Part shown: piece after piece, positions 23,746 through 43,920 of the stretch
Numbering within the stretch: position 1 is the stretch's first letter
Layout of the letters: every line of letters begins with the position of its first letter
Source of the DNA: Purpureocillium takamizusanense
Lineage: Eukaryota > Ascomycota > Sordariomycetes > Hypocreales > Ophiocordycipitaceae
Assembly (NCBI RefSeq): GCF_022605165.1
Contig: NC_063070.1
Span: 1,054,001-1,118,000, forward strand
DNA length: 64,000 nt
Direction: 5' to 3'
Made by a program: the position numbers and the translations under genes
Notes under the pieces: generated by a model
The model's input: the letters and a program-made list of their open reading frames with translations, nothing else
The model's database searches: none
Told to the model about the DNA's origin: nothing

Positions 23746-26700
23746 ATGCAATCGACCGCAAACAAGTCACACGGCACGCAACCCCCTCCAGCCTCGCCCA
23801 CCGGCCACCCCCTCCCGCGCCGCGCCTCCCCCGCCAACTCGGTGACCCTGCGGCACCACCGCCTGGCCCGCGATGCCTCCCTCCGCGCGAGCCCCGGCTC
23901 CGGCCCGGCCGTGACCAGCCAGACCACGTCGTCGCCGCGACGCAACTCGTCGGGCGAGAGCCACGAGACGGGCCAGAGCGACCCCAAGAAGTGGTTCGAC
24001 CAGTCCAACGAGAACCCGACGGCGACGTTTGACAACAACACCATGGATGGTATGTGCCCCAGGCTATCCTACTTCCTCGGGCCAGGGCAGCCAGCTGACA
24101 CGCGCAGTCGATCCGCCCTTTTTCCAAAAAGAGTCCGACTCGTCCAACGAGGAAAAGGTATACCGCCACCAGCAGTACCTCGCCGCGCCGCCCAGGCTCA
24201 CGGGCGCCCAGAGCAGCAGCGCCGACGAGTACCGCAGCGTCATCGACGACCTGACCGTCGAGATCCAGAAGCTCAAGGACGAGCTCAAGCGGTACAAGCA
24301 GATGGGCCCCGACATGCTGCGCAAGGAGAAGCTGTTCGAGATCAAGATCCACGGCCTGCCCAAGCGGAAGCGGCGCGAGCTCGAGGCCACGCTGCGCGAC
24401 TTCACCGCCGGCCTGGAGCAGTCGCCCGACGCCTCGTCGTCGCAGCGCAAGAAGTCGTCGAAGCGCAACAGCGGCAGCGGCGGCGGCGGCAACCGCGGCG
24501 ACAATCGCGGCGACCACGCCTACGCGGGCTCCGGCTCCGCCTCCAAGCACGCGTCGTCGTCGTCGGGCTCCAACGCGCGCCCGGCCGACTCGGCGTACGC
24601 GTCCATGTCGACGGGCGCCAACTCGTCGGGCACGTCGCTGAGCCGCCCGCCCAACAACTCGCGCGCCAAGACGTCGGAGCAAAAGGTCGAAAACTACCTC
24701 AAGGACATCCCCGAGGGCCTGTACCCGCGCCACATGGCCATGACGGTCAAGGAGAGGAAGAAGCTGGTCGTCCGGCGGCTCGAGCAGCTCTTTACGGGCA
24801 AGATGGGCGGGCGGCACGCGGCGAACAAGCCGCGAGGCGCCGCCGCCCCTGCCGCTGCCGCGGACGTGGCCAACAACCCCGGCCTCGCCCCCGTCGTCAC
24901 CGGGGACCGCGCGCAAAACACGCAGCTGTCGCACCAGCCGCCGAGCCTGGCCACGGTCGAGCCCTCGCGCGAGGCGCGGATCCATCCCGCGGACCAGCCA
25001 CACCCGCCGGCGGGCCACGGGGCCGGCGGCAAGAAGAGCAGGTCCCGCGGCGACAACGGCTCCGCGTCCAACTCCAACGGCGACCAGACCGAGTCGGGCG
25101 GCAACGGCGGCACCACCACGACCACCGCCGCCGGCAGCTCCGGCGCCAACATCTCGCCGACCAACATGCCGCCGCCCCCGGAGCAGCGGCCGACGCATCC
25201 CAAGGACCTCGACCCCGACCGCGTGCAGGTGCCCTCGGAGAACATGGAGTACATCCGGCACCTCGGCCTGGTGCCCCCGGAGCTGCTCGCCGAGGAGCCG
25301 CAGTTCACGCCCGACGTGCACGCCGACGCCGAGGGCTGGGTGTACCTGAACCTGCTGTGCAGCCTGGCGCAGCTGCACATGATCAACGTGACGCCGGGCT
25401 TCGTGCGCTCCGCCGTGTCCGGCATCAGCACCAAGTTCCAGCTGTCGCCCGACGGCCGCAAGATCCGCTGGCGCGGCGGCAGCGAGGGCACCAAGTTCTC
25501 CAGCGACAGCTCCGGCGACAACTCGCAGCGCAGCCCCGACGATTCCGACGGCGGCTCCGACGTGTCGAGGAAGCACGTGTCCTCGTCGCGCAAGCGGCAG
25601 AAGACGGGCCACTCGACCGGCGAGGGCTACCACTCGGGCCACTCGAGCAAGAACAACCACTTCCACAAGCCCGAGCTGCACGCGTCCGGCTCCTCTGACA
25701 CGTTCCACTACAAGCCCATGTTCGCCCAGCAGGAGTCGCCCAACGGCGGCACCTCGCCCGACGACACCCTGTCCTCGTTTGGGCCCGTCGAGGACAGCAA
25801 CCTCGGCGAGTCGCGCTGGGGCCTGAGCGGCTCCGGCACCACCGGCCGCAGGAAGCGCCGCCACGACGGCGCCATCATCTACTACAGCGGCGCGCCCTTT
25901 TGCACCGACCTGTCCGGCGACCCCGGCGACGTCTCGCCCACCACCTACATGCTGTCCAGCGGCCAGGCCCGCGACGACGACGACGACGACGCCGAGTCCG
26001 ACCGCGCGCGCCCCTCGCTGCAGAGGTCCTACTCGGGCTCGTCGCTCCACTACAGGCCTTTGTCCGACGGGCTACGGAAGCAGCTGGGTCGCGGTCGCGA
26101 CGACGACGACGACGACGACGCCAAGATGGACATTGACAGCGAGGGCGAGCCCCCCGGCCTCAGCGGCGACTCGGGTAACGACATGACCGACGTCGAGCTC
26201 GAGCCCACGTGGTCGGGCGACCAGCAGTACATGGAGATGGTCCCCCTGGAGCCCTGCGGCCTGGGCGGCGTCGTGCCCGAGGACCACTTCATGGTGTTGG
26301 TCACCACGCAGCGGCCCAAGGACGTCAAGCAGCTGACGCGCCCCCCTCTCGTCCGCGCGAGGACGGACGAGGCGACCGAGGGCATCATCTGCCGGCTCGC
26401 CACCATGTCCACGTCGTCGCCGGGCCCCATGATGGCCACGACGAAGCCGCCCAGTGAGCCGACGGTCGAGATCGACTACGTCTCGGGCCGCATCAAGCGT
26501 CTGCCCCCGGTCCCGCTCCCACCGCCCGCCATCTTCTTCCCCCCCTTTAGCTCCGACGGCTCGAGCGACACCGATGACGACCTCGAGTCGGAGGCCGACG
26601 GCTCGGAGCTGGAGTCGTCGGAGGAGCTGATGAGCCGCCGCGCGAACCCGCACCACTCGGACGGGTATCCCGACGGCGTGGACCTGAGCAGCGGCGACGA

Positions 26701-26947
26701 GGACGGCGAGGACCCCGACGACGACGAGCCCGAGACGCAGCGCATGTACGACGTCGACATGCAGGCGCGGCCGCTGGACATGGTCCGCAAGGAGCCCAGG
26801 CAGCAGTCGCTGAGCAGCGCCGAGGTCGCCCCGCCGTCGGTGCGCGGCCGGAGCAAGAGCGCCAGCGAGGCCCTCGCCCGGACCGGCGGCAGCTCGGCCG
26901 CCACGGCCGGCGTGGAGAGCGGCTACAGCAGCGACGAGAGCAGCTAG
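23746..26947 (+). CDS. frq: FREQUENCY, circadian clock protein
   Basis: Core negative element of the fungal circadian oscillator; it forms a complex with FRH and casein kinase 1 to inhibit the White Collar complex. Exons 23746-24049 and 24108-26947 (58-nt intron) give 1047 residues. FRQ landmarks: [20 protein letters not shown] near residue 25, [48 protein letters not shown], the dimerising coiled coil at about 140-165 ([20 protein letters not shown]), the basic LPKRKRREL near 184, [20 protein letters not shown] near 470, [14 protein letters not shown] near 695 and [13 protein letters not shown] near 825. The second in-frame Met is codon 100, directly before the intron, matching the short-FRQ start of Neurospora. 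Acidic, Ser-rich PEST-like segments are frequent. The start at 23746 gives the expected N-terminus. Confidence 0.96.
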
Positions 26948-33744: not shown

Positions 33745-34075
33745 AAACGGCAAAAAATTACATACAACAGCCGGTGTTCGCTGGTCGTCACCGACCCAAC
33801 TACTAATCTGCCCCTTACCAGCTTAACTATGGGAGAGCGGACGGGATCCCGTGCTTTCTGGTAGGTATGGTCGTATGTGCTTGACACACCAGACAAATCG
33901 GCCTAAGAGCCGCAAAACGGATATCAAGAGCAAAAACAAAAAAACATACAACAGCCGGTGTTCGCTGGTCGTCACCGACCCAACTACTAATCTGCCGCTC
34001 ACAAGCTTGTCTATGGGAGAGCGGACGGGATCCCGAATATTCTTGTGGCTATGGTCGTATGTGCTTGAATGCTCG
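33745..34075. repeat. About 184-bp direct repeat, two copies
   Basis: Copy one begins around 33745 and copy two around 33929. The strongest match begins at CATACAACAGCCGGTGTTCG (33761 and 33945) and runs about 120 bp through GAGCGGACGGGATCCCG and GGTCGTATGTGCTTGA. The copies differ by scattered substitutions and small indels. No transposon termini are evident. Confidence 0.85.
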
Positions 34076-35172: not shown

Positions 35173-36096
35173 ATGGCGCACGAGATCAAGGGCGTCTACG
35201 CCGCTCTCGTCACCCCCTTTACGCACGACCAGGGGCCCATCGACTTTGACGCCCTCGACGAGCACATCAACCGCCTCGTCGACGCCGGCATCCACGGCCT
35301 GGTGCCCGGCGGCAGCACCGGCGAGTTCACGGCGCTCACCACCGAGGAGCGCAAGCGGCTCGTCGAGGCCGTCGTCAAGTCTGCCAGGGGCCGCGTGGGC
35401 GTCATGGCCGGCGTCGGCGACCTATCCACGGCCAAGACGGTCGAGCTCGCCGAGCACGCTGCGCGGGCGGGCGCCGACTCGCTCCTGGTGGTGCCTCCTT
35501 TCTACGACGCCCCGACCCTGGCGGAGCTCAAGGAGCACCTCGCCGAGGTCCACAGGGCGTCCGGCCTGCCCATCGTCTACTACAACATCCCCTCGGCCAC
35601 GGGGCTGGCCCTCACGCCCGCTGAGATGGCCTCGCTCGGCGACGTCGGCGTGCGCTACCTCAAGGACACGTCCGGCAACGCCGCCGCCCTGACGGACATG
35701 ATCCTGAGCGACGAGCTTGCGTCCAGAATCACCGTCTTCAACGGCTGGGACACGCTGACCTTTTACGGCCTCGCCGCCGGCGCCAAGGGCTCCGTTTGGG
35801 GCGCCGCCAACATCGTCCCCGAGCTGTGCGTGCAGCTGTGGGACGCCGTGGCCGTCCGCGGCGACCTGCGCGAGGGGCGCGAGGTGTGGAAGAAGATCTT
35901 TCCCATATGCAAGCTGCTCGAGTCGGGAAACTACGCGGCCGCCGTCAAGACGGCCATGGAGCTGCGGGGCTGGAAGACGGGCGGCGTGCGCAAGCCCTTT
36001 GCCATGACGGGGGGCGACGCGCGACGGAGGCTCGCCGCAGCCCTCGCGGCCGCGGGCGTGGGCACAGACGGAGCGGGGGAGCGTAGTCCAGACTGA
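35173..36096 (+). CDS. DapA-superfamily lyase/deaminase
   Basis: Class I aldolase-fold, Schiff-base enzyme; single exon, 307 residues. Motifs: GGSTGEF at residues 47-52, YYNIPSATG with the conserved Tyr137, and YLKDTSGN with the Schiff-base Lys164. The position equivalent to E. coli DapA Arg138 is Ala142. That, and the fact that fungi make lysine by the aminoadipate route, argues against dihydrodipicolinate synthase. Family alternatives are 4-hydroxy-2-oxoglutarate aldolase and pyrroline-4-hydroxy-2-carboxylate deaminase. The neighbouring epimerase and D-amino-acid oxidase favour the deaminase role in hydroxyproline breakdown (inference). No targeting peptide or PTS1. ATG at 35173 has an ACC Kozak context. 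Confidence 0.85.
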   Translation: MAHEIKGVYAALVTPFTHDQGPIDFDALDEHINRLVDAGIHGLVPGGSTGEFTALTTEERKRLVEAVVKSARGRVGVMAGVGDLSTAKTVELAEHAARAGADSLLVVPPFYDAPTLAELKEHLAEVHRASGLPIVYYNIPSATGLALTPAEMASLGDVGVRYLKDTSGNAAALTDMILSDELASRITVFNGWDTLTFYGLAAGAKGSVWGAANIVPELCVQLWDAVAVRGDLREGREVWKKIFPICKLLESGNYAAAVKTAMELRGWKTGGVRKPFAMTGGDARRRLAAALAAAGVGTDGAGERSPD

Positions 36097-36333
36097 GCAT
36101 GGCAGGCCTATACTGGGCACGACCCGGGCGTAATACAGTGTAGCTCTGCCTCGCCAACTGCATGCCTGTGATGGTCATGACGCATGCCCACGTTGCTCGC
36201 TCTACCTGCAGTGTGTTTGGTGGCCATGCGCGACGAACCAGTTCGACTGCGCCGTTCCCTGAGGCCGCCCGACATGTTTATCATATCGTGGGTCAACTCA
36301 CGATGCGGAAACATGAGTAGACGCACGCCAACT

Positions 36334-36426
36334 GCGGTCCACGGCTCGATCTGCCATGCGGTCACGGCTCGATCTTCCATCGCGGTCACGGTTCAATCTG
36401 CTATGCGGTCATGGCTCCATCTGCAT
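36334..36426. repeat. 24-bp tandem repeat at a gene 3' end
   Basis: Four units of 22-24 bp (GCGGTCACGGCTCGATCT-type) at 36334, 36358, 36382 and 36405. The last unit covers the stop codon and final five codons of the minus-strand Zn2Cys6 gene; the others extend into its 3' flank. Confidence 0.85.
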
Positions 36427-38546
36427 CACGTCGGGCCATCCGTACGCATAGTCGCACGTCCTGCGCCTGTGCTCCCAGACGGCCTGCGCCACCGCGCTCG
36501 GCTTCCTGCCGTCGACAAACATGCCGCTGTCGTCGACGGCCTCGAGGCACCGCAGCCCCATCGCCTGCAGGTCGGGGGTGGCCGCCTCCGAGGCCGCGAT
36601 AAACGTCGACCAGCCGATGGTGACGGAAAAGTCGGCGTCGACCCACGGCATCTCCAGGCACGGCTGCGCGAGCTCGAGGGCCTTCCTGACCTGGTCCTGC
36701 ACGACCATGGCGCTGAGGTTGTGGACGCGGCGGTAGAAGAAGATGATGAGGGCCTGGTGCATCGAGAGGACCATCGACTCCACGTGCTGCCTGCGCGGAG
36801 CGTCGGCCTCTCCCGGCAGACACGGCGGCACGGGCCCAAAGGGCGCGCTCGTTCGTTGTAGGTTCCACGACCAAATATCTCGCTCCAGCGTCTTGACGTG
36901 CCGGGCCACGGCCGCAGACACGGTCGCGTCGCGCAGGCTGGCGGCGTGCAAGCGGGGCCTCTCGTTGACGAAGCTGATGGTCTGCGACAGGAGCGTCATG
37001 AGCGCCTCGGGCACGCCAAAGATGTCCGGGTACAGCGTGGCCCGCCATACGCCCGACACGTCCAGGTGGATGTCATTGTAGCCGACGTCGTCGGGCTTCG
37101 GATGCGTGGCGTCCAGCTTGCCGAGTTGCTGCGCGTCGACGCGGAACTGGCCCGCCGCCGCTCCCGCGAGCCGGGACGCGTGCCTCTCTCGTTGCCCTTC
37201 CGAGGGCACGATGCTGGTGCTCTCCATGATGATTCGCAGATGCGTGTACAGGTGGTGCAGGACGCGATGCGCAAAGGTCTTGGTGGCGGGCAGCCCCCGG
37301 GCGCGAATGAGGCGCTCCGCCTCCAGCAGCAGCCTCTTGACGACGCGCGGGCCGTGACGATGCACCTGCGGGCTGGTCAGCTGGCGCCTGGGTGACCCGA
37401 CGTTGCACGTACGGAGATGACAGCGACGCCCAAGATTGCCATGAGCGTCTCGGTGTACTGGGAGGTCCCCGGCTCCGTCTGCAGGGCAGCCCCGAGGTGC
37501 CTCTGCGCGTCGCGCTGGTGGTCGGCGCCGACGCGGAGCCAGAACGAGGCGGCCGACTCGTCGTGCGCCGCCGACTCGCCGAGATGGAACGCGCTCTTTG
37601 CCAAGAGGACCGAGAGGACGCTGCGGCGGGCCTGCGTCGTCGAGTCCCAGAGCTGGACCTCGGCAAACGTCTCGAGCGCACAGGGCAGCAGCAGCAGCTT
37701 CCACGGGGACATGCCGCGCGCGGCCGAGGCCGTGTCATTCAGCACACGGGCCTTGAGGTGGCGGAGCAGGGCGGCGGCATGCTGCGGTAGCGACGTGCCG
37801 CTGCTCGGAGCACGATTCAGGGGGAAGACGTCGACGACGGAGCGGAAGCCAGGCGAGCCGTGAACGGTGGCGGGTTGCCGAGAGAGAGTCGGCTTGTGCG
37901 TCACGAGCGCCTCGATCACGCTCGGCGACGGCGGCACGTCAAAGCCTTCGGAGAGGCTTTCGTCCCACGGCAGGCCCAGGCCCATCCACTCTTCAGATCC
38001 CGCAAGTTCAGCACCAAAGAGCGACGGCTGGTCGAGGTCTGCAAACACGTCGGCCGGCGGCGATAGAGCATCGTCCCGTGGGAGGTCGAGAGAGACGTGT
38101 TCCTCGCGGCCATCGCTCGACGGGTCCTCGCCATCGCTCGACGGGCTGTCCGGGCGCTGTCCCGTGCCCTCGCACGCCTTGAAAACACCAAAGGGGCCGA
38201 CCGCGTGCAGCCCGTCGCCGGACACGGACTCGGCGTCGAGGTCGAGCAGAATCTCTCCGGCCGCCCGTCGCCCGAGGCTCCGCACCATGTCGGCGCTCAT
38301 CGAGGACCTGTGCGCCTCGGTGAAGAGGGGGTATCGGAACGCGCCGCCCTCGGGATCCGCGCTCGACGCCGGCGAGGCGATCCACAGCAGCCGCGGGGCA
38401 TATCCCCGGCAGGGCAGGTCGAGGCGGCGGCAGGTCGAGCAGGTCGGCTTCGCCTCGTCGCACTTGAGGTGGCGGTTCCGGCAGGTCCCGCAGCCGGTAA
38501 AGGTCCTCGACCGCGGCTGGTCTCGCGCGGATGCTGCAGGCTTCAT
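36409..38546 (-). CDS. Zn2Cys6 transcription factor
   Basis: Nuclear DNA-binding regulator, probably of the surrounding catabolic genes (inference from position). Exon 1 is 38546-37413, the intron 37412-37366 (47 nt, GTACGT donor, CTGAC branch, CGCAG acceptor), exon 2 37365-36409; 696 residues. The binuclear zinc cluster lies at about residues 19-46: C-x2-C-x6-C-x6-C-x2-C-x6-C (CGTCRNRHLKC, CSTCRRLDLPC). The remainder matches the fungal-specific factor domain type 2 layout, with an acidic Ser/Asp-rich linker and helices such as ETLMAILGVAVIS. An alternative acceptor would leave a 32-nt intron, which is improbably short. The extreme C-terminus lies in a tandem repeat. Confidence 0.85.
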
Positions 38547-39202
38547 GGGCGGACCGAAATGACGTTGCTGAAGCTATTCCGCAGCTGGGCAATGTGCTTG
38601 CCGGGATCAATCGTCGTCTTGGTTCAGAGGCTGTCGTTGGCGCAGGATATGCGAATGGCCTCCGAAGCGGGCGGCACGTCTCCAGTCGAGCCGTCTCGGT
38701 GTTCGACTCAGAGTGCCCGGATCAACGGCCGACAGACAGGGGCCGACGCCGTTCAAGGCAAGTTTCCCCGACGGCTCGGCCACGATCCCTGTCAATCTGC
38801 AGCATCCATCCATGTCGACGACCCCTGTCTGTCTGGGGAAATGGAGACTTCCCCGCATCCCCGGACCCATCGCCAACGACGCCTTTCGTCTGTGGAGTAA
38901 GTTAGTATGGCGGCGTCGCGGGCCGGACTCAGGACTCAGGACCATGGTCTCAAGACGAACAAGCTCACGCGGGGTCTGCAGAGGATTCAAAGAGAGTGCT
39001 GAATTCCATTCGGAGACGAAGCGACGATGGTAGAGGAAGCTGGGCGGGGCGGTGAAATGAAAAGCCACCAGGGCTGACTAACACAAAATCACAATCAAAT
39101 TGGCTGCACAGTGTCACCATGTGAGCTAGCCATCGCCAGACGAATGCTGCTCCTTCATTCTTCTATCACGAACACCCCCCCAGCCCCGGCCACCAGACCA
39201 GG
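38547..39202. other. Intergenic, TF promoter
   Basis: Promoter of the Zn2Cys6 gene and 3' flank of the permease gene. It contains an inverted repeat GGGGAA-N8-TTCCCC at 38835-38854. No coding sequence is supported. Confidence 0.4.
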
Positions 39203-40806
39203 TCAGCTCGAGTTGGAGTTGTCCGCGCACGACCACGCAGACGTCCCGCCCTTGGCCCTGTACGAATCGACGATGCCCACGATGCTGCCGTACGTGCCCG
39301 CCACCATGAGGAACGTGCCCGAGGCAATGACAAACAGGCTCCAGCACACCATCAGCCGCCAGCGCCAGCCCGGGCTCGCCTTGCCCTTGCCGCCGCTCCA
39401 GTTGTCGTAGAGCCACATGCACCCCATGGGCTGGAACGACAGGAGGGTGCCGAACAGCGCCCCGGCCAGCGACACGATGCCGTTGAAGACGGGTATGGCG
39501 CTGGCGAGCATGTACGCCACGATGCAGACGCCGAAGCTGCAGCCCAGCCACGTCGCCCAGTGCGTAAGCGTGTTGGACGTGAGGTGGTCCGACCCGCGCA
39601 GGATCCGCACAAAGACGTACTTGTTTGATACCTGCAGCGATCAGCTCGATACGTCCATCGAGACGGGCGACTCACGTGGGCGAGGAGGATGCCGCTGACG
39701 AGCAGCCCCGGCAGGGCGATGCCGTACGAGACCTTTTTGATGGTGGTGCCCGCGGACCCGAGCGCAGGCGAGGCAACGTACGACCCGCAATTGTAGTACA
39801 CCACGATGCCCACAATCAAGAAGACGACGGTGATGACGGTCTGGCAGAGCGCCAGGGCCCGCGGATACAGGCGCGGATCCCGCATCTCGGACACGATGGG
39901 GAAGAAGGCGCCCGTGCCGGCGTAGGCAAAGATGAGCGTCGACACGGCCGAGCTGGCCTGCGCAAAGGTCGGGCTCCCAAACAGCTTGTAGTCGGACTGC
40001 CAGGGGCCGTCGCGAGGGGCCGTCGGAGGGCGGTCCTGGACGCCCGTCGCGATTGTCACGGTGAGCACTGGGCGTGTCAGCGACGGCCACGGCAGGGGGG
40101 GGCCACGGAGTGCGCACCGGCGATGATGATGGCCACGACACCGGCTATGGCAAGCCAGGTCATGCGTCCGAGGGTGCGGATGCTGGAGAGCACAAACACC
40201 ATGATGAAGGCGACGGCGACGAAGACGGCCGTGCACGCGCCGTGGTCGGACAGCGCGTTGAGACAGATCGAGATGCTCAGCATGGCCGACCCGGCCGTCA
40301 TGACGTACTCTAGCCACGGTGAGCAGACGACGCCCCGACGGCGATGCGGAATACGTACGGCCCATGAAGGCGACGGCAAACAGCTCCCGCCCGACGCGCC
40401 CAAACATGAGCTGGCCGGCATCGTCGACGCCGTAGACGTGGCGGTGCCGGAGCTTGAAGACGCCGACCATGTAGTCTGACCACGTGGTGATGCCGGCGAC
40501 GGTGCAGAGCAGGACCACGCCCGGGATCATGCCGAGGGTGTCGAACACGGACGGGAACGACAAGACGCCCAGCCCGATCTGGGCCTTCATCATCAAGCAC
40601 GCCGTGCCGAGCCAGCCGACCTAGAGTTTGTCGTCTGTGAGCTGCTGTCACGGAGGGCTGCCGCCCGGGAGACGTACGTTGCGGAAGTTGGGGCCGTCTT
40701 GCTTGAGTTTCCCAAACACGGCATCGTGTCGCGCGTCGTCCACCTCGCCGGCGCTCACGTCGGGGGTCTGGACGTGAGCAGACGACGGCTTGAGCTTGCT
40801 TTCCAT
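39203..40806 (-). CDS. AAAP-family amino-acid permease
   Basis: Plasma- or vacuolar-membrane amino-acid transporter. Exons 40806-40678, 40620-40359, 40309-40118, 40067-39676 and 39631-39203 give 467 residues, with about eleven hydrophobic segments expected for the family. Family blocks: VGWLGTACLMMKAQIGLGVL (first helix), SIRTLGRMTWLAIAGVV, TIATGVQDRPPTAPRDGPW, SDYKLFGSPTFAQASSAVST, AYAGTGAFFPIVSEMRDP and KYVFVRILRGSDHLTSNTLT. Introns are 44-57 nt. Intron 3 uses the GTGCGC donor at 40117, the only choice that links IIIA to VLTVTIATG in frame. The substrate cannot be read from sequence; the neighbours suggest an imino acid such as hydroxyproline. Confidence 0.88.
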
Positions 40807-41264
40807 GGGGGCGTTTGACCGAGGAGAAGGATGGGTGGAAGAGCTTGGATCAGAAGCTCGGCTGGCGTAGCATTGATGAACATTACGCAGTCGGCCGTTG
40901 GGGTGGCTTCCCCGGATTCTCCTGCAGTCGGTCGTTGCGAGCGCACAGACACACCCGACGATCGTCGTCACTTGCCTCCGGGCGAGACCTGACACGGACT
41001 GGGCGCCGGCGCAGCCAATGGCCCCTCATCTACATGATTCATTCGCCCACGCCGGCGGGCTCTCGCGGCGCGGAAACCTGCCCGTCTCGCTGCAGGGGAC
41101 GTCGAGATGTGCCTGTCGCCGCCTCACCGCTTCACCAAAGCACCACATTCCTAGGGAGACCTGCGCGTGTCTGAGCAGGAGATTGGCGTCACACTGATGC
41201 AATGAGACAACGGCCGCAAGGGCTGCCGCTGAGGTGAAACTTGACTACGTACTACGTCTGAAAA
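40807..41264. promoter_or_regulatory. Permease promoter region
   Basis: Upstream of the permease start and downstream of the epimerase stop. At 40900-40913 it contains GGGGTGGCTTCCCC, similar to the inverted repeat in the epimerase/oxidase promoter. No coding sequence is supported. Confidence 0.35.
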
Positions 41265-42278
41265 CTACAGCTGAAAGCCTTCCTGGAATGGATCGTCAGG
41301 GTCGACGTATATCTGCTTCTCGCCCGTGATCCACGCCCTGCCTTTGATGCTGGGAACGACGGCCGCAAGCCCCCCCACCGTGAGCGTCGCCCTGACCCGT
41401 CCCAGGAACCGCGTCTCAATGACGCTCCGAAACTCGACCGGCTGATCCACCCCAATCCGCTTCCTCGCATGCAGAATCGCCAGCCGCGCCGAGCTCCCGG
41501 TCCCGCACGGGCTCCGATCCAGCCTGCCGGGGGTGACGACGACGGCGTGCTTGACGGACAGCCGCCCGTCGGGGCCCGCCTCGAGGGGCGCGGTGATGAT
41601 GACGTTGTGGATGCCTCGGATGGCCGGGTTCTCGGGGTGCGTGGGCGTGCAGAGGTCGAGCACCGCCGCCCTGACCAGCGCGCCGAGCTCGACGAGGCGG
41701 TTCCCGCAGGCCGGCGCGACGTCGACGCCCAGCGCCTCGGCCTCGGCCACGGCGTACCACTGCCCGCCGTAGGCCACGTCGACGAGGACGCGCCCGACGC
41801 CCGGCACGGCCACCTCCAAGTCCAGCGCGTGCACGAACGCGGGCACGTTGTCGAGCGAGACGGACCGGCACGCCCCGTCGGCGCACTCGGCCGTGGCGGT
41901 GACGAGGCCCGCCGCCGTGTCCAGCCTGACGGTCGTCGAGGGCTCCGTCATGGGCACCATGCCCGTCTCGAGCAGCACCGTCGTCGTGCAGATGGCGTTG
42001 GACCCGGACATGGGCACCCAGTCGCCGGGGGCCATGATGAGGAAGCCCGCGTCGGCGCGCGGGTCGCACGGCGGCAGCACGATCATGGCGCTCGACTCCA
42101 GCCGGCCCCGCGGCTCGTGGAGCAGCAGCCGGCGCAGCCCGTCGTGCCGGGCCATGAACTTGACGAGCTTCTCGTGCATCGTCGCCGCGGGCACGTCGAG
42201 GACGCCGCCGATGACGACGTCGCCGGCCTCGCCCTCTGCGTGGCAGCACACGAGCGAGATGGTGCGCCGCGATCTCAT
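41265..42278 (-). CDS. Proline racemase family, hydroxyproline 2-epimerase-like
   Basis: Cofactor-independent epimerase/dehydratase, single exon, 337 residues. The two catalytic acid/base positions are Ser91 (VPMSGSNAICTTT) and Cys258 (GRLDRSPCGTGSS). Cys/Cys pairs occur in proline racemase and many 4-hydroxyproline epimerases, Cys/Thr in trans-3-hydroxyproline dehydratase; Ser/Cys pairs have been reported among hydroxyproline epimerases. The adjacent D-amino-acid oxidase fits an epimerase making a D-hydroxyproline, but 3-hydroxyproline substrates remain possible. No signal peptide or PTS1, so probably cytosolic. Divergent from the oxidase gene, sharing a 402-bp promoter. Confidence 0.87.
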   Translation of the reverse strand: MRSRRTISLVCCHAEGEAGDVVIGGVLDVPAATMHEKLVKFMARHDGLRRLLLHEPRGRLESSAMIVLPPCDPRADAGFLIMAPGDWVPMSGSNAICTTTVLLETGMVPMTEPSTTVRLDTAAGLVTATAECADGACRSVSLDNVPAFVHALDLEVAVPGVGRVLVDVAYGGQWYAVAEAEALGVDVAPACGNRLVELGALVRAAVLDLCTPTHPENPAIRGIHNVIITAPLEAGPDGRLSVKHAVVVTPGRLDRSPCGTGSSARLAILHARKRIGVDQPVEFRSVIETRFLGRVRATLTVGGLAAVVPSIKGRAWITGEKQIYVDPDDPFQEGFQL

Positions 42279-42680
42279 TTCGGGTGTGGTTGAGGAACAC
42301 TCGACGCGCCTTCAAGGTTTGGGCACCAGGCGCCGTGATATACTCGACAGGTTGTACTCGACGAGTTTGGCCAGCACGGCGGCGGTGGGAATCGGGGAGG
42401 CCTTCCCGTTTGGGCGGCCGTCACTTACACGCCGCGGCACCGATCGGGCGACGGATGCATGCGCTTACAGTGTTTGTGTAGCAGATGGCCGCTTTGTTCA
42501 GTCGTGACTGGTTTGAATACCCCGCTGCCGCGCTGGTCAAGCACGGCTCGTGAGCCCAACCAGTTCAGTGTGATCCAAGCGTAGCGTCTTGACCATTTGT
42601 CTTGACCATTTGCACATCGCCACTCTATATCACGCCCGTGCTACGGCTCGCAGCTCGATCGGTGTCTTGCACGCGCAGAC
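42279..42680. promoter_or_regulatory. Divergent promoter, epimerase / oxidase
   Basis: Shared 402-bp interval between two divergently transcribed catabolic genes, so a single regulator could control both. It contains the near-perfect inverted repeat listed next. Confidence 0.55.
42393..42408. promoter_or_regulatory. CGG-N10-CCG inverted repeat
   Basis: CGGGGAGGCCTTCCCG is a 16-bp near-palindrome with one mismatched pair and CGG/CCG ends spaced by ten bases, the general form bound by dimeric Zn2Cys6 factors. The cluster encodes such a factor. Binding is inference. Confidence 0.4.
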
Positions 42681-43920
42681 ATGGCGGATACCGTCGTCGT
42701 CGTCGTCGTCGGGTGAGTTTACCCCCCTGCAACAGAGCAGACTGACGGGAACAGAGCCGGTGTCTCGGGCCTCACGTCGGCTCTCTTGCTGTCCAAGAAC
42801 AAGGGCTACAGCATCACGGTGGTGGCAAAGCACATGCCGGGCGACTACCACGGCGAGTACGCGTCGCCGTTTGCGGGGGCCAACATCGTCCCGTGAGCGT
42901 TCCCCCTGTGGCCGTGGCGAGTGCGAAAGCGTCCTCACCAGCTGCCTAGCATGGCCGACGAGGCCGGCAAACGATGGGAGTCGGAGACGTGGCACGAGCT
43001 GAAGCGCCTCGCCCAAGAGGTGCCCGAGGCCGGCATTCACTTCCAGAGCACGTCGCCACCGTCACGTCGCTGTCCGCAACACCTCCGCCTACACGGCTGA
43101 AGAGTGTCAGATCCACCGTCGGAGCCGCGACCTGGCCACGGACGCGGGGTTCCCGGCGCAGACCTTTAGCAGCGCGCCGTGGTACCGCGGCCTGTTTGAC
43201 GACTACCGCGACCTCCCGCCGGCCGACGTGCTGGACGGCTACGACTCGGCGTCCGAGTATACGGGCGTCTGCATCAACACGGCCGTGTACCTGCCGTGGC
43301 TCGTGGGGCAGCTCCTCCGCAACGGCGTCGTGGTGAAGCGCGGCATCCTCGCGGACATTGTAGAGGCCAAGGCGCTCGGCCACACGGGGCGGCCCGCGTC
43401 CGTCATTGTCAACGCGACGGGCCTGGGCTCGCACAAGCTGGGCGGCGTGCGCGACCCGGCCCTCTACCCGGTGCGCGGGCAGACGGTCCTCGTGCGCAAC
43501 GAGACGACGCCCATGGTGCTGTGCTCGGGCTCCAGCGACGGCCCGGGCGAGGAGCTGTACGTGATGCAGCGCGCGGGAGGCGGCGGCACCGTGCTGGGCG
43601 GCACGTACGACGTCGGCAACTGGGACACGGAGCCGGACCCCAACGTGGCGTCGCGCATCATGGCCCGCGCGGTGAGGGCCCGGCCGGGGATGGCGGGCGG
43701 AAGGGGGGTGGCCGGGCTGAGCGTCATACGCCACGCCGTCGGGCTGCGGCCGGCGCGCAGGGGCGGCGTGCGGCTCGAGAGGGAGGCGCTGGACGGGGCG
43801 ACGACGGTGGTGCACAACTACGGGCACGGCGGGTTCGGATACCAGTCGTCGTACGGGTACGCGGCGGGCGTCGTGGAGCTGGTGGGCGAGATTCGCAGGC
43901 AGAGGGCTGCGAAGCTGTAA
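42681..43920 (+). CDS. D-amino-acid oxidase, peroxisomal
   Basis: FAD enzyme oxidising D-amino or D-imino acids to the oxo/imino product plus hydrogen peroxide. Exons 42681-42712, 42755-42892, 42950-43047 and 43103-43920 give 361 residues. The FAD Rossmann motif VVGAGVSGLTSA is split by intron 1. PFAGANIVPMADE and the signature VHNYGHGGFGYQSSYG are classical. The C-terminus AKL is a type 1 peroxisomal signal. Intron 3 needs a GC donor (GCACGT at 43048, 55 nt) to join HFQ to CQIHRRSRDL; the nearest workable GT would leave a 37-nt intron. D-proline-type imino acids are good substrates for this family, consistent with a cis-4-hydroxy-D-proline step (inference). Confidence 0.9.

Follow-up and report, generated by a model that had tools for sequence, protein, structure and literature searches.

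A putative catabolic gene cluster for a 4-hydroxylated cyclic imino acid, probably assembled in part from bacterial genes, in the fungus Purpureocillium takamizusanense

Our analyses of a 64,000-nucleotide stretch of the genome of the insect-killing fungus Purpureocillium takamizusanense (hereafter the window; G000:C3:1054001-1118000, from an assembly of 35.57 Mb on 14 contigs) revealed a cluster of five genes that we read, with a probability of roughly 0.6, as a catabolic module for a 4-hydroxylated cyclic imino acid, whichever last step it uses. The most likely single substrate appears to be trans-4-hydroxy-L-proline, with another isomer or 4-hydroxypipecolate as possible alternatives. The genes encode a DapA-superfamily lyase, a Zn2Cys6 transcription factor, an AAAP-family permease, a proline-racemase-superfamily (PRS) enzyme and a D-amino-acid oxidase (DAAO) (Table 1). 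All five reading frames are open after intron removal and all five families score over their Pfam cut-offs, which confirms the five adjacent genes named in the initial annotation. That annotation had proposed a complete hydroxyproline degradation pathway; the imino-acid catabolic module stands, but its completeness does not carry over, the deaminase label of the DapA-family enzyme is uncertain and the substrate could be another 4-hydroxylated imino acid. In particular, a complete bacterial-type module would include a 2-oxoglutarate-semialdehyde dehydrogenase and the cluster contains no aldehyde dehydrogenase (ALDH), so the "complete pathway" was rejected. Gene identities, reading frames, linkage in other fungi, phylogenetic nesting and bacterial gene neighborhoods were all computed.

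From these results we infer a substrate, a series of reactions, a compartment and a mode of regulation. The AAAP permease, which shows eight hydrophobic segments in a crude scan, is the presumed importer and would take up the L-compound as its putative substrate. The PRS enzyme, with a Ser/Cys dyad, would invert C2 to yield the D-form, which the DAAO, probably in the peroxisome, would oxidize to a cyclic imine. Addition of water would open the ring to a 4-hydroxy-2-oxo-omega-amino acid, with which the DapA-family lyase would form a Schiff base through its lysine. For the last step, a retro-aldol cleavage to pyruvate and an amino-aldehyde is slightly favored, the alternative being the textbook loss of water and ammonia to give 2-oxoglutarate semialdehyde. 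A general aldehyde dehydrogenase encoded outside the cluster would complete the route. The Zn2Cys6 protein is, from its position, the presumed pathway regulator and would control the cluster. We propose that the cluster is a mosaic of an actinobacterial DapA, a bacterial epimerase and a native fungal oxidase.

Clustering of the three enzyme genes by chance is unlikely, because only ∼2.4e-5 such triplets would be expected, on a rough estimate, from the ∼2 PRS, 7 DapA-family and 7 DAAO-like loci in 35.6 Mb; a recount giving 8 DapA-family loci changed this little (the genome has 10 exon-level matches to the family). Linkage in other fungi was read for the DapA, PRS and DAAO genes from locus tags and from equal contig size, taken as a proxy for the same contig. 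This synteny check, which had been suggested at the outset, showed the three genes to be linked in some other ascomycetes. They lie within four consecutive tags in Fusarium nematophilum (ACJ41O_010479, DapA; 010481, oxidase; 010482, PRS) and in F. zealandicum (FZEAL_5354, DapA; 5357, oxidase; 5356, PRS), and on contigs of equal size (364733) in Tolypocladium ophioglossoides. PRS and DapA genes are paired in Conoideocrella (QQS21_000185/000190), Sarocladium (NLU13_6678/6674) and Plectosphaerella (equal-sized contigs, 172385), and PRS and oxidase genes in P. lilacinum (Purlil1_1663/1662) and F. decemcellulare (NM208_g15575/15576). At least 13 of the nearest 60 PRS genes share a contig size with a DapA gene among the 120 listed, against 0 of the next 60 among the matches listed (Fisher 1.2e-4); these 13 include the pair in the window itself and one doubtful match (2,596 bp, different sources). 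Most of the nearest 60 are without such a match among the listed DapA genes, and linkage is shown for a minority only. That the five genes are fortuitous neighbors and not one pathway is highly improbable: the regulator and permease could serve other functions and DapA-family genes are common in fungi, but the linkage kept in other genera and the chance estimate both argue against it.

The PRS enzyme falls in PF05544 (378.4 bits against a cut-off of 27, model positions 2 to 325 of 325), and its nearest solved relatives are 4k8l, 4k7g, 1tm0 and 4lb0. The superfamily is classed by two active-site residues (Watanabe et al. 2015, PMC4364671, excerpt), and structures have been solved of a Ser/Cys 4-hydroxyproline epimerase and a Ser/Thr 3-hydroxyproline dehydratase (Zhao et al., PMC4113996, excerpt). 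The fungal protein carries Ser/Cys, one of the two dyads (Cys/Cys or Ser/Cys) of 4-hydroxyproline 2-epimerases; the dyad therefore indicates a two-base epimerase, and we presume a 2-epimerase from the residues conserved. All 26 fungal PRS proteins in our alignment are Ser/Cys, and a first regular expression run over the 120 listed PRS proteins returned 96 as Ser/Cys, leaving 23 uncaught at the first motif and one at the second. In a tree of 70 PRS proteins, which included 26 of the 120 listed ones and left out the short bacterial PRS of locus L010, the fungal enzymes make up a single clade (100/99). Its sister group contains both Ser/Cys genes of Paracoccus, Shinella, Rhizobium and Streptomyces and Ser/Thr dehydratases. 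For the epimerase we propose a source in a bacterial group; the genes of that group standing closest in the tree are for the most part alphaproteobacterial. A separate clade holds the Ser/Cys PRS genes found next to the DapA relatives in bacteria, except that of Streptomyces (L014); L003, L004 and L006 hold additional Cys/Cys PRS genes. The second, and only other, PRS match of the P. takamizusanense genome (L002, G000:C2:5026257-5027255) is of the Cys/Cys type and groups with two actinobacterial genes, one of which, in Geodermatophilus africanus, adjoins an ornithine-cyclodeaminase-family match.

Read with plain GT-AG introns, the oxidase gene has either a broken frame or a loss of conserved residues near 43020-43125. 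We scored in-frame pairs of GT or GC donors and AG acceptors by alignment to P0243, P0244 and P0247, and a GC-AG third intron gave the highest mean alignment score (1400, against 1381 for the runner-up, a 37-nt intron). This splicing restores the conserved oxidase block EAGIHFQKCQIHRR. The public model P0241 is short of 12 residues of this block, and P0242, the model of the sister species, also has a gap there. A frameshift pseudogene was considered and rejected, because one GC-AG intron both keeps the frame and restores the block. Over almost its whole length the spliced protein aligns with PDB 7ct4 (389.9 bits), and it has the marks of a DAAO: the PF01266 DAO domain, GAGVSG (GxGxxG) and the C-terminal block HNYGHGGFGYQ. 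By motif scan, its final AKL resembles a type 1 peroxisomal targeting signal (PTS1), as do the ends of 85 of the 120 listed oxidase relatives; five of the six cluster-linked oxidases end in SKL, AKL or PKL and the sixth in ANL. A peroxisomal location is thus likely, as judged from the C-terminus. In a tree of 69 of the 120 listed DAAO rows, all six linked oxidases belong to the same half (29/69 rows, 95/89), without forming one exclusive clade (4 changes), and P0290, the general oxidase of the same fungus, falls in the other. The oxidase is a native fungal paralog of eukaryotic type. The idea that an FAD oxidase replaces the bacterial dehydrogenase holds insofar as a eukaryotic DAAO sits in the cluster, but a single-chain FAD enzyme is no fungal invention, since bacterial PRS/DapA modules have DAO-type oxidases too (PMC4113996, excerpt).

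The history of the DapA-family gene appears to be different from that of the oxidase. In a 52-protein phylogeny (28 bacterial sequences and 24 of 120 fungal ones listed), the fungal DapA proteins form one clade (100/99) nested among Actinobacteria, with Geodermatophilus (100/98), Kribbella plus Nonomuraea (98/90) and Arthrobacter pascens (99/97) as sisters in that order (starred support values); the Geodermatophilus step has 93/87 in a smaller DapA-family tree. Because of this nesting, the fungal gene was probably transferred from an actinobacterial donor, apparently a soil bacterium. Eukaryotes, among them fungi, are reported to have acquired D-amino-acid genes by transfer (PMC5169069), in an excerpt that makes no mention of this DapA.

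Bacterial relatives were collected by a scan with two peptide patterns, which yielded 30 loci and, for that reason, favors close relatives. A PRS gene lies near the DapA gene in 25 of them; the other five are L011 and L027 (contigs <6 kb), L008 (PRS 13 kb off), L007 (a PRS fragment with stops, 5 kb) and L032 (a 31% outlier). A PRS gene fragment with two stops (G005:C60:78744-78926) was seen ∼5 kb from the Arthrobacter pascens DapA gene. DAO-type oxidases (at least 42% identity to the queries) occur in 16/30 loci, two being queries themselves, and close ALDH genes (at least 53% identity to either Kribbella ALDH) in 24/30, query loci and end fragments counted; the queries for both came from some of the loci searched. 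Across 15 isolate genomes, the fungal-type DapA gene is ≤5 kb from a PRS gene in 13/15 cases, compared to 9/74 for other DapA-family genes (Fisher 2.9e-8), and one of those nine is probably a second copy of the fungal type. This count rests on 89 of 101 dihydrodipicolinate synthase (DHDPS) rows, the 12 weakest being dropped, and on 36 of 46 PRS rows, after removal of 10 weak or partial ones that included the Arthrobacter pascens fragment. The bacterial neighborhoods support a putative route from an epimerase through a D-imino-acid oxidase to a DapA-family enzyme. Two adjacent SDR-type matches stand beside the PRS modules of L020, L021, L024, L026, L031, L072 and L077, the family being confirmed for the open reading frames of L020, L021 and L026; such a pair might invert or oxidize the 4-hydroxyl group.

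The DapA-family enzyme had been taken for a pyrroline-4-hydroxy-2-carboxylate (Pyr4H2C) deaminase, a label that is unproven because the protein lies outside the classical deaminase clade and does not share the classical motifs. Classical DapA proteins have GSLGE and KEF[TS]GD and a clade of their own (99/98), and an S. meliloti protein from the pSymB region, which from its position we take to be HypD, reads GSMGD and KEFGG (partial reading, 268 aa); the resulting definition (GS[LM]G, KEF) is our own, drawn from six classical-type loci and this one S. meliloti gene. Fungal-type proteins read GSTGEF, YNIPSATG, KDTSGN/D and NGWD, motifs that resemble the GSTGEA, YNIPALSG, KQTSGD and NGYD of E. 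coli NanA. Thus, with GSTGE and KDT, the fungal type does not match the S. coelicolor/S. meliloti type, and in a tree of 31 chosen DapA-family rows it groups with NanA and the plasmid genes L068 and L069 (95/94) and not with the classical clade. Among the NCBIfam matches there was no curated model bearing the name of Pyr4H2C deaminase. Considered as a candidate pyruvate aldolase of the NAL/KDG type, the protein has the Lys-x-Thr and scores 142 against 281 for NCBIfam NAL. A lysine-pathway DHDPS was rejected (189 against 206, with Ala in place of the Arg of YNVPSR). The NanA-like motifs and grouping, together with amino-aldehyde dehydrogenase partners in bacteria, are why a retro-aldol reaction is slightly favored over textbook deamination, as a prediction from sequence.

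In the textbook route, trans-4-hydroxy-L-proline would be epimerized, oxidized to pyrroline-4-hydroxy-2-carboxylate, deaminated by the DapA enzyme to 2-oxoglutarate semialdehyde and oxidized to 2-oxoglutarate. A neighborhood of PRS, DAAO, DHDPS and ALDH genes is the 4-hydroxyproline signature used, and partly verified, in bacteria (Zhao et al., PMC4113996, excerpt), deletion of the epimerase gene SCO6293 abolishes growth of S. coelicolor on L-hydroxyproline (PMC6608401, excerpt), and the overall similarity of the fungal DapA to classical deaminases is no lower than that to aldolases. Against this stand the motifs and clade peculiar to the classical enzymes, and the fact that 8/15 genomes with a fungal-type DapA gene also hold another PRS/DapA pair. 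In the four such loci that were fetched and read, the second pair is classical: its PRS is of the Cys/Cys type, its DapA carries YNNP and a three-subunit dehydrogenase is matched, as in the gene set of SCO6289-6293. The fungal-type modules carry other ALDH genes, and one classical-module dehydrogenase finds no close match in the P. takamizusanense genome (best match 30% identity, E 3.6e-8). We regard the textbook route as possible but, on balance, unlikely.

The ALDH genes of the bacterial modules are of two kinds, counted by BLAST to two Kribbella ALDH proteins at ≥53% identity, with some matches cut by contig ends, and typed by NCBIfam for seven proteins of fungal-type loci. An aminobutyraldehyde-type ALDH occurs in 15/30 loci, and 5/5 tested pass the subfamily cut-off of 615 (667-722 bits, with 319-342 against 770 for one 2-oxoglutarate-semialdehyde model). 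A second kind occurs in 13/30 loci, one at a contig edge only, and was typed as MMSDH, a malonate-semialdehyde-type dehydrogenase, in 2/2 tested, both from freshwater loci (704 and 703 against 448.5). The ALDH proteins of the classical modules L067 and L087 matched no NCBIfam family at E ≤ 1e-60. Ten chosen neighboring open reading frames included three class-III aminotransferases (L022, L029 and L031), the others being SDR proteins, ABC binding proteins and a permease. A class-III aminotransferase lies ≤10 kb from the fungal-type DapA gene in 6/15 genomes (0.3 expected from density), compared to 0/8 for other pairs; three of the six are distant (34-38%). The fungal cluster is without any of these bacterial partners. 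None of the genomic positions listed for ALDH matches falls in the window, and the genome's best match to the amino-aldehyde-type ALDH has 41% identity (E 6e-96).

Given a six-membered ring, as in 4-hydroxypipecolate, an amino-aldehyde followed by beta-alanine and malonate semialdehyde would fit the bacterial partners, as a hypothesis from gene context. Here, epimerization and oxidation of 4-hydroxypipecolate would be followed by ring opening, which gives 6-amino-4-hydroxy-2-oxohexanoate, and by cleavage of this compound to pyruvate and 3-aminopropanal. From the latter, bacteria would make beta-alanine, malonate semialdehyde and acetyl-CoA; the fungus would use general enzymes for this tail of the route. 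The aminobutyraldehyde-type and MMSDH-type ALDH genes and the class-III aminotransferases near the bacterial fungal-type DapA genes point this way. However, three of the six aminotransferases are only distantly related, many bacterial loci, like the fungal cluster, lack the partners, beta-alanine genes may be neighbors for other reasons, and nothing in the fungus itself indicates ring size. We also know of no PRS enzyme that acts on hydroxypipecolate, and the compound did not occur among the matches listed from the open-licence literature. Hydroxypipecolate as the substrate is accordingly a doubtful proposition. Since many of the bacterial kin carry amino-aldehyde dehydrogenases and 8/15 genomes have a second PRS/DapA pair, the substrate could nonetheless be a 4-hydroxylated imino acid other than 4-hydroxyproline. 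Tentatively, and at less than even odds, the cluster may be the eukaryotic counterpart, acquired in part by transfer, of a so far undescribed bacterial route in which 4-hydroxypipecolate or hydroxyproline is epimerized, oxidized by a flavoenzyme and cleaved by a DapA-family aldolase to pyruvate and an amino-aldehyde. The latter would be 3-aminopropanal, then converted to beta-alanine, or aminoacetaldehyde, then converted to glycine, instead of 2-oxoglutarate semialdehyde.

Several results weigh against the imino-acid module as we read it. The linkage comparison with other fungi covers three of the five genes, those of the enzymes. DAAO enzymes accept many D-amino acids, and the presence of an oxidase is therefore weak evidence of the substrate. 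For the DapA enzyme, NanA is a long branch in a tree whose root is for drawing only. BLAST scores are 109-129 bits with classical deaminases, 124 with NanA, 116 with YagE, 95 with E. coli DapA and 72 with the S. meliloti protein, and such similar whole-sequence scores do not separate the deaminase and aldolase readings; moreover, the best family model is dapA (TIGR00674, 189 against a cut-off of 206), and the best solved relatives are named dihydrodipicolinate synthases. The PRS enzyme misses the NCBIfam equivalog cut-offs for 4-hydroxyproline 2-epimerase (252 against 376, 150 against 450 and 105 against 442). Its sister loci L073 and L075, which hold Ser/Cys PRS genes, have a LacI-type regulator and a GMC oxidoreductase alongside and gave no match to DapA or DAO. 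To our knowledge this context fits no PRS pathway; as it is not hydroxyproline-like, it weakens any inference from the PRS enzyme alone. The top NCBIfam model of the enzyme is T3LHypDht (362 against 550; a further score is 215 against 540), and Ser/Thr dehydratases (4k7g) lie within the sister group. These two points, and the names of two listed fungal relatives, would fit a trans-3-hydroxy-L-proline dehydratase. But the second catalytic residue is Cys, not Thr: the regular expression read Cys in 119 of 120 listed proteins, counting that of the window, and did not match the remaining one; a dehydratase would require neither a DAAO nor a DapA enzyme, and the pyrroline-2-carboxylate reductase family is not among the five genes. 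A dehydratase is thus very unlikely.

Bacterial trans-4-hydroxy-L-proline modules (S. coelicolor SCO6289-6293, S. meliloti hyp and P. aeruginosa lhp) resemble the fungal cluster in having a PF05544 C2 epimerase, a PF01266 FAD enzyme, a DapA-family enzyme, a transporter and a regulator in or near one cluster. The fungal cluster differs in its Ser/Cys rather than Cys/Cys epimerase, its eukaryotic DAAO in place of a bacterial dehydrogenase, its DapA subfamily and its want of an ALDH, although the S. coelicolor operon also is without one (PMC6608401, excerpt). Closer are the DAO-DapA-PRS-ALDH modules of Geodermatophilus, Kribbella, Nonomuraea, Microlunatus and other Actinobacteria (L003-L031), with DapA proteins at 47-67% identity, Y(N)IP/VP...G and KDTSG motifs in almost all of those read and an adjoining Ser/Cys PRS in most. 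They differ in their separate PRS clade (the Streptomyces locus excepted), their bacterial oxidase and, in half of them, amino-aldehyde dehydrogenases; no substrate for them was found in the literature searched. The Ser/Cys 4-hydroxyproline 2-epimerase B9JQV3 of Agrobacterium vitis (PMC4113996, excerpt) shares Ser-Gly-Ser-Asn and DRSPCGTG and aligns over its full length (265 bits). It belongs to a separate PRS clade, whose neighbors L072, L076 and L077 go with a third DapA subfamily (KESSG). We take B9JQV3 to be PDB 4lb0. The text and the legend of PMC4113996 give differing accessions. E. coli NanA and YagE share the Lys-x-Thr (KDT/KQT), and NanA also YNIPxxxG.xLT, NG[WY]D and its grouping with the fungal type; both are 35-37% identical over ∼220 aa and act on sugar acids, and NanA has a long branch.

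Hydroxyproline is abundant in collagen, including that of nematode cuticle, and in plant extensins, and would be relevant to this fungus and its relatives, which live on invertebrates and plants. If our reading is true, the epimerase/D-oxidase/DapA route would be a eukaryotic pathway assembled by gene transfer together with a recruited native, probably peroxisomal, enzyme. Bacteria with two PRS/DapA modules and different dehydrogenases call into question the labeling of every such neighborhood as a 4-hydroxyproline pathway, and these coexisting modules make the second route directly testable. No description of the fungal cluster was found among the matches listed from the open-licence literature, nor did three fungal epimerase names occur among them. 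The nearest system is an A. niger gene pair, LhpI and a putative trans-3-hydroxyproline dehydratase (PMC5144071, excerpt), an earlier case of neighboring fungal genes of hydroxyproline type. That pair differs in involving 3-hydroxyproline and AcnX; the AcnX (LhpI-type) gene of P. takamizusanense (L078, G000:C3:2663189-2664406, 474 bits) sits far from the cluster.

Table 1. Features of the five-gene cluster (window positions)
Feature	Position	Strand	Details
DapA/DHDPS-superfamily class I lyase	35173..36096	+	307 aa, one exon; PF00701 207.6 bits; Schiff-base Lys in YLKDTSGN, YNIPSATG loop
Zn2Cys6 transcription factor	36409..38546	-	exons 38546-37413, 37365-36409; 696 aa; Zn_clus and Fungal_trans_2 (123 bits) over cut-off
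AAAP-family amino-acid permease	39203..40806	-	exons 40806-40678, 40620-40359, 40309-40118, 40067-39676, 39631-39203; 467 aa; Aa_trans PF01490 135.5 bits
PRS enzyme	41265..42278	-	337 aa, one exon; PF05544 378 bits; dyad Ser (MSGSN) / Cys (DRSPCGTG)
Divergent promoter region common to PRS gene (-) and oxidase gene (+)	42279..42680	.	sequence
DAAO	42681..43920	+	exons 42681-42712, 42755-42892, 42950-43047, 43103-43920; 361 aa; DAO PF01266 116.6 bits; C-terminus -AKL
Predicted GC-AG intron of oxidase (third intron)	43048..43102	+	55 nt; keeps frame, restores conserved block

The neighbors of the cluster with a named family are of housekeeping type, frq and prenylcysteine lyase on the left and VID27 and GT20 on the right; the frequency clock protein is a long open frame (window 23915-26944) matched almost end to end (1280 bits). 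CGG-N-CCG spacings, counted in four promoters without a shuffled control, gave no common spacing that stood out. The G+C content of the window is 64.5%; the published value for the whole genome is 57.8% (PMC9302088). A direct repeat of 131 bp (33754-33884 and 33938-34068) lies upstream of the DapA gene, its copies being 89% identical and starting 184 bp apart.

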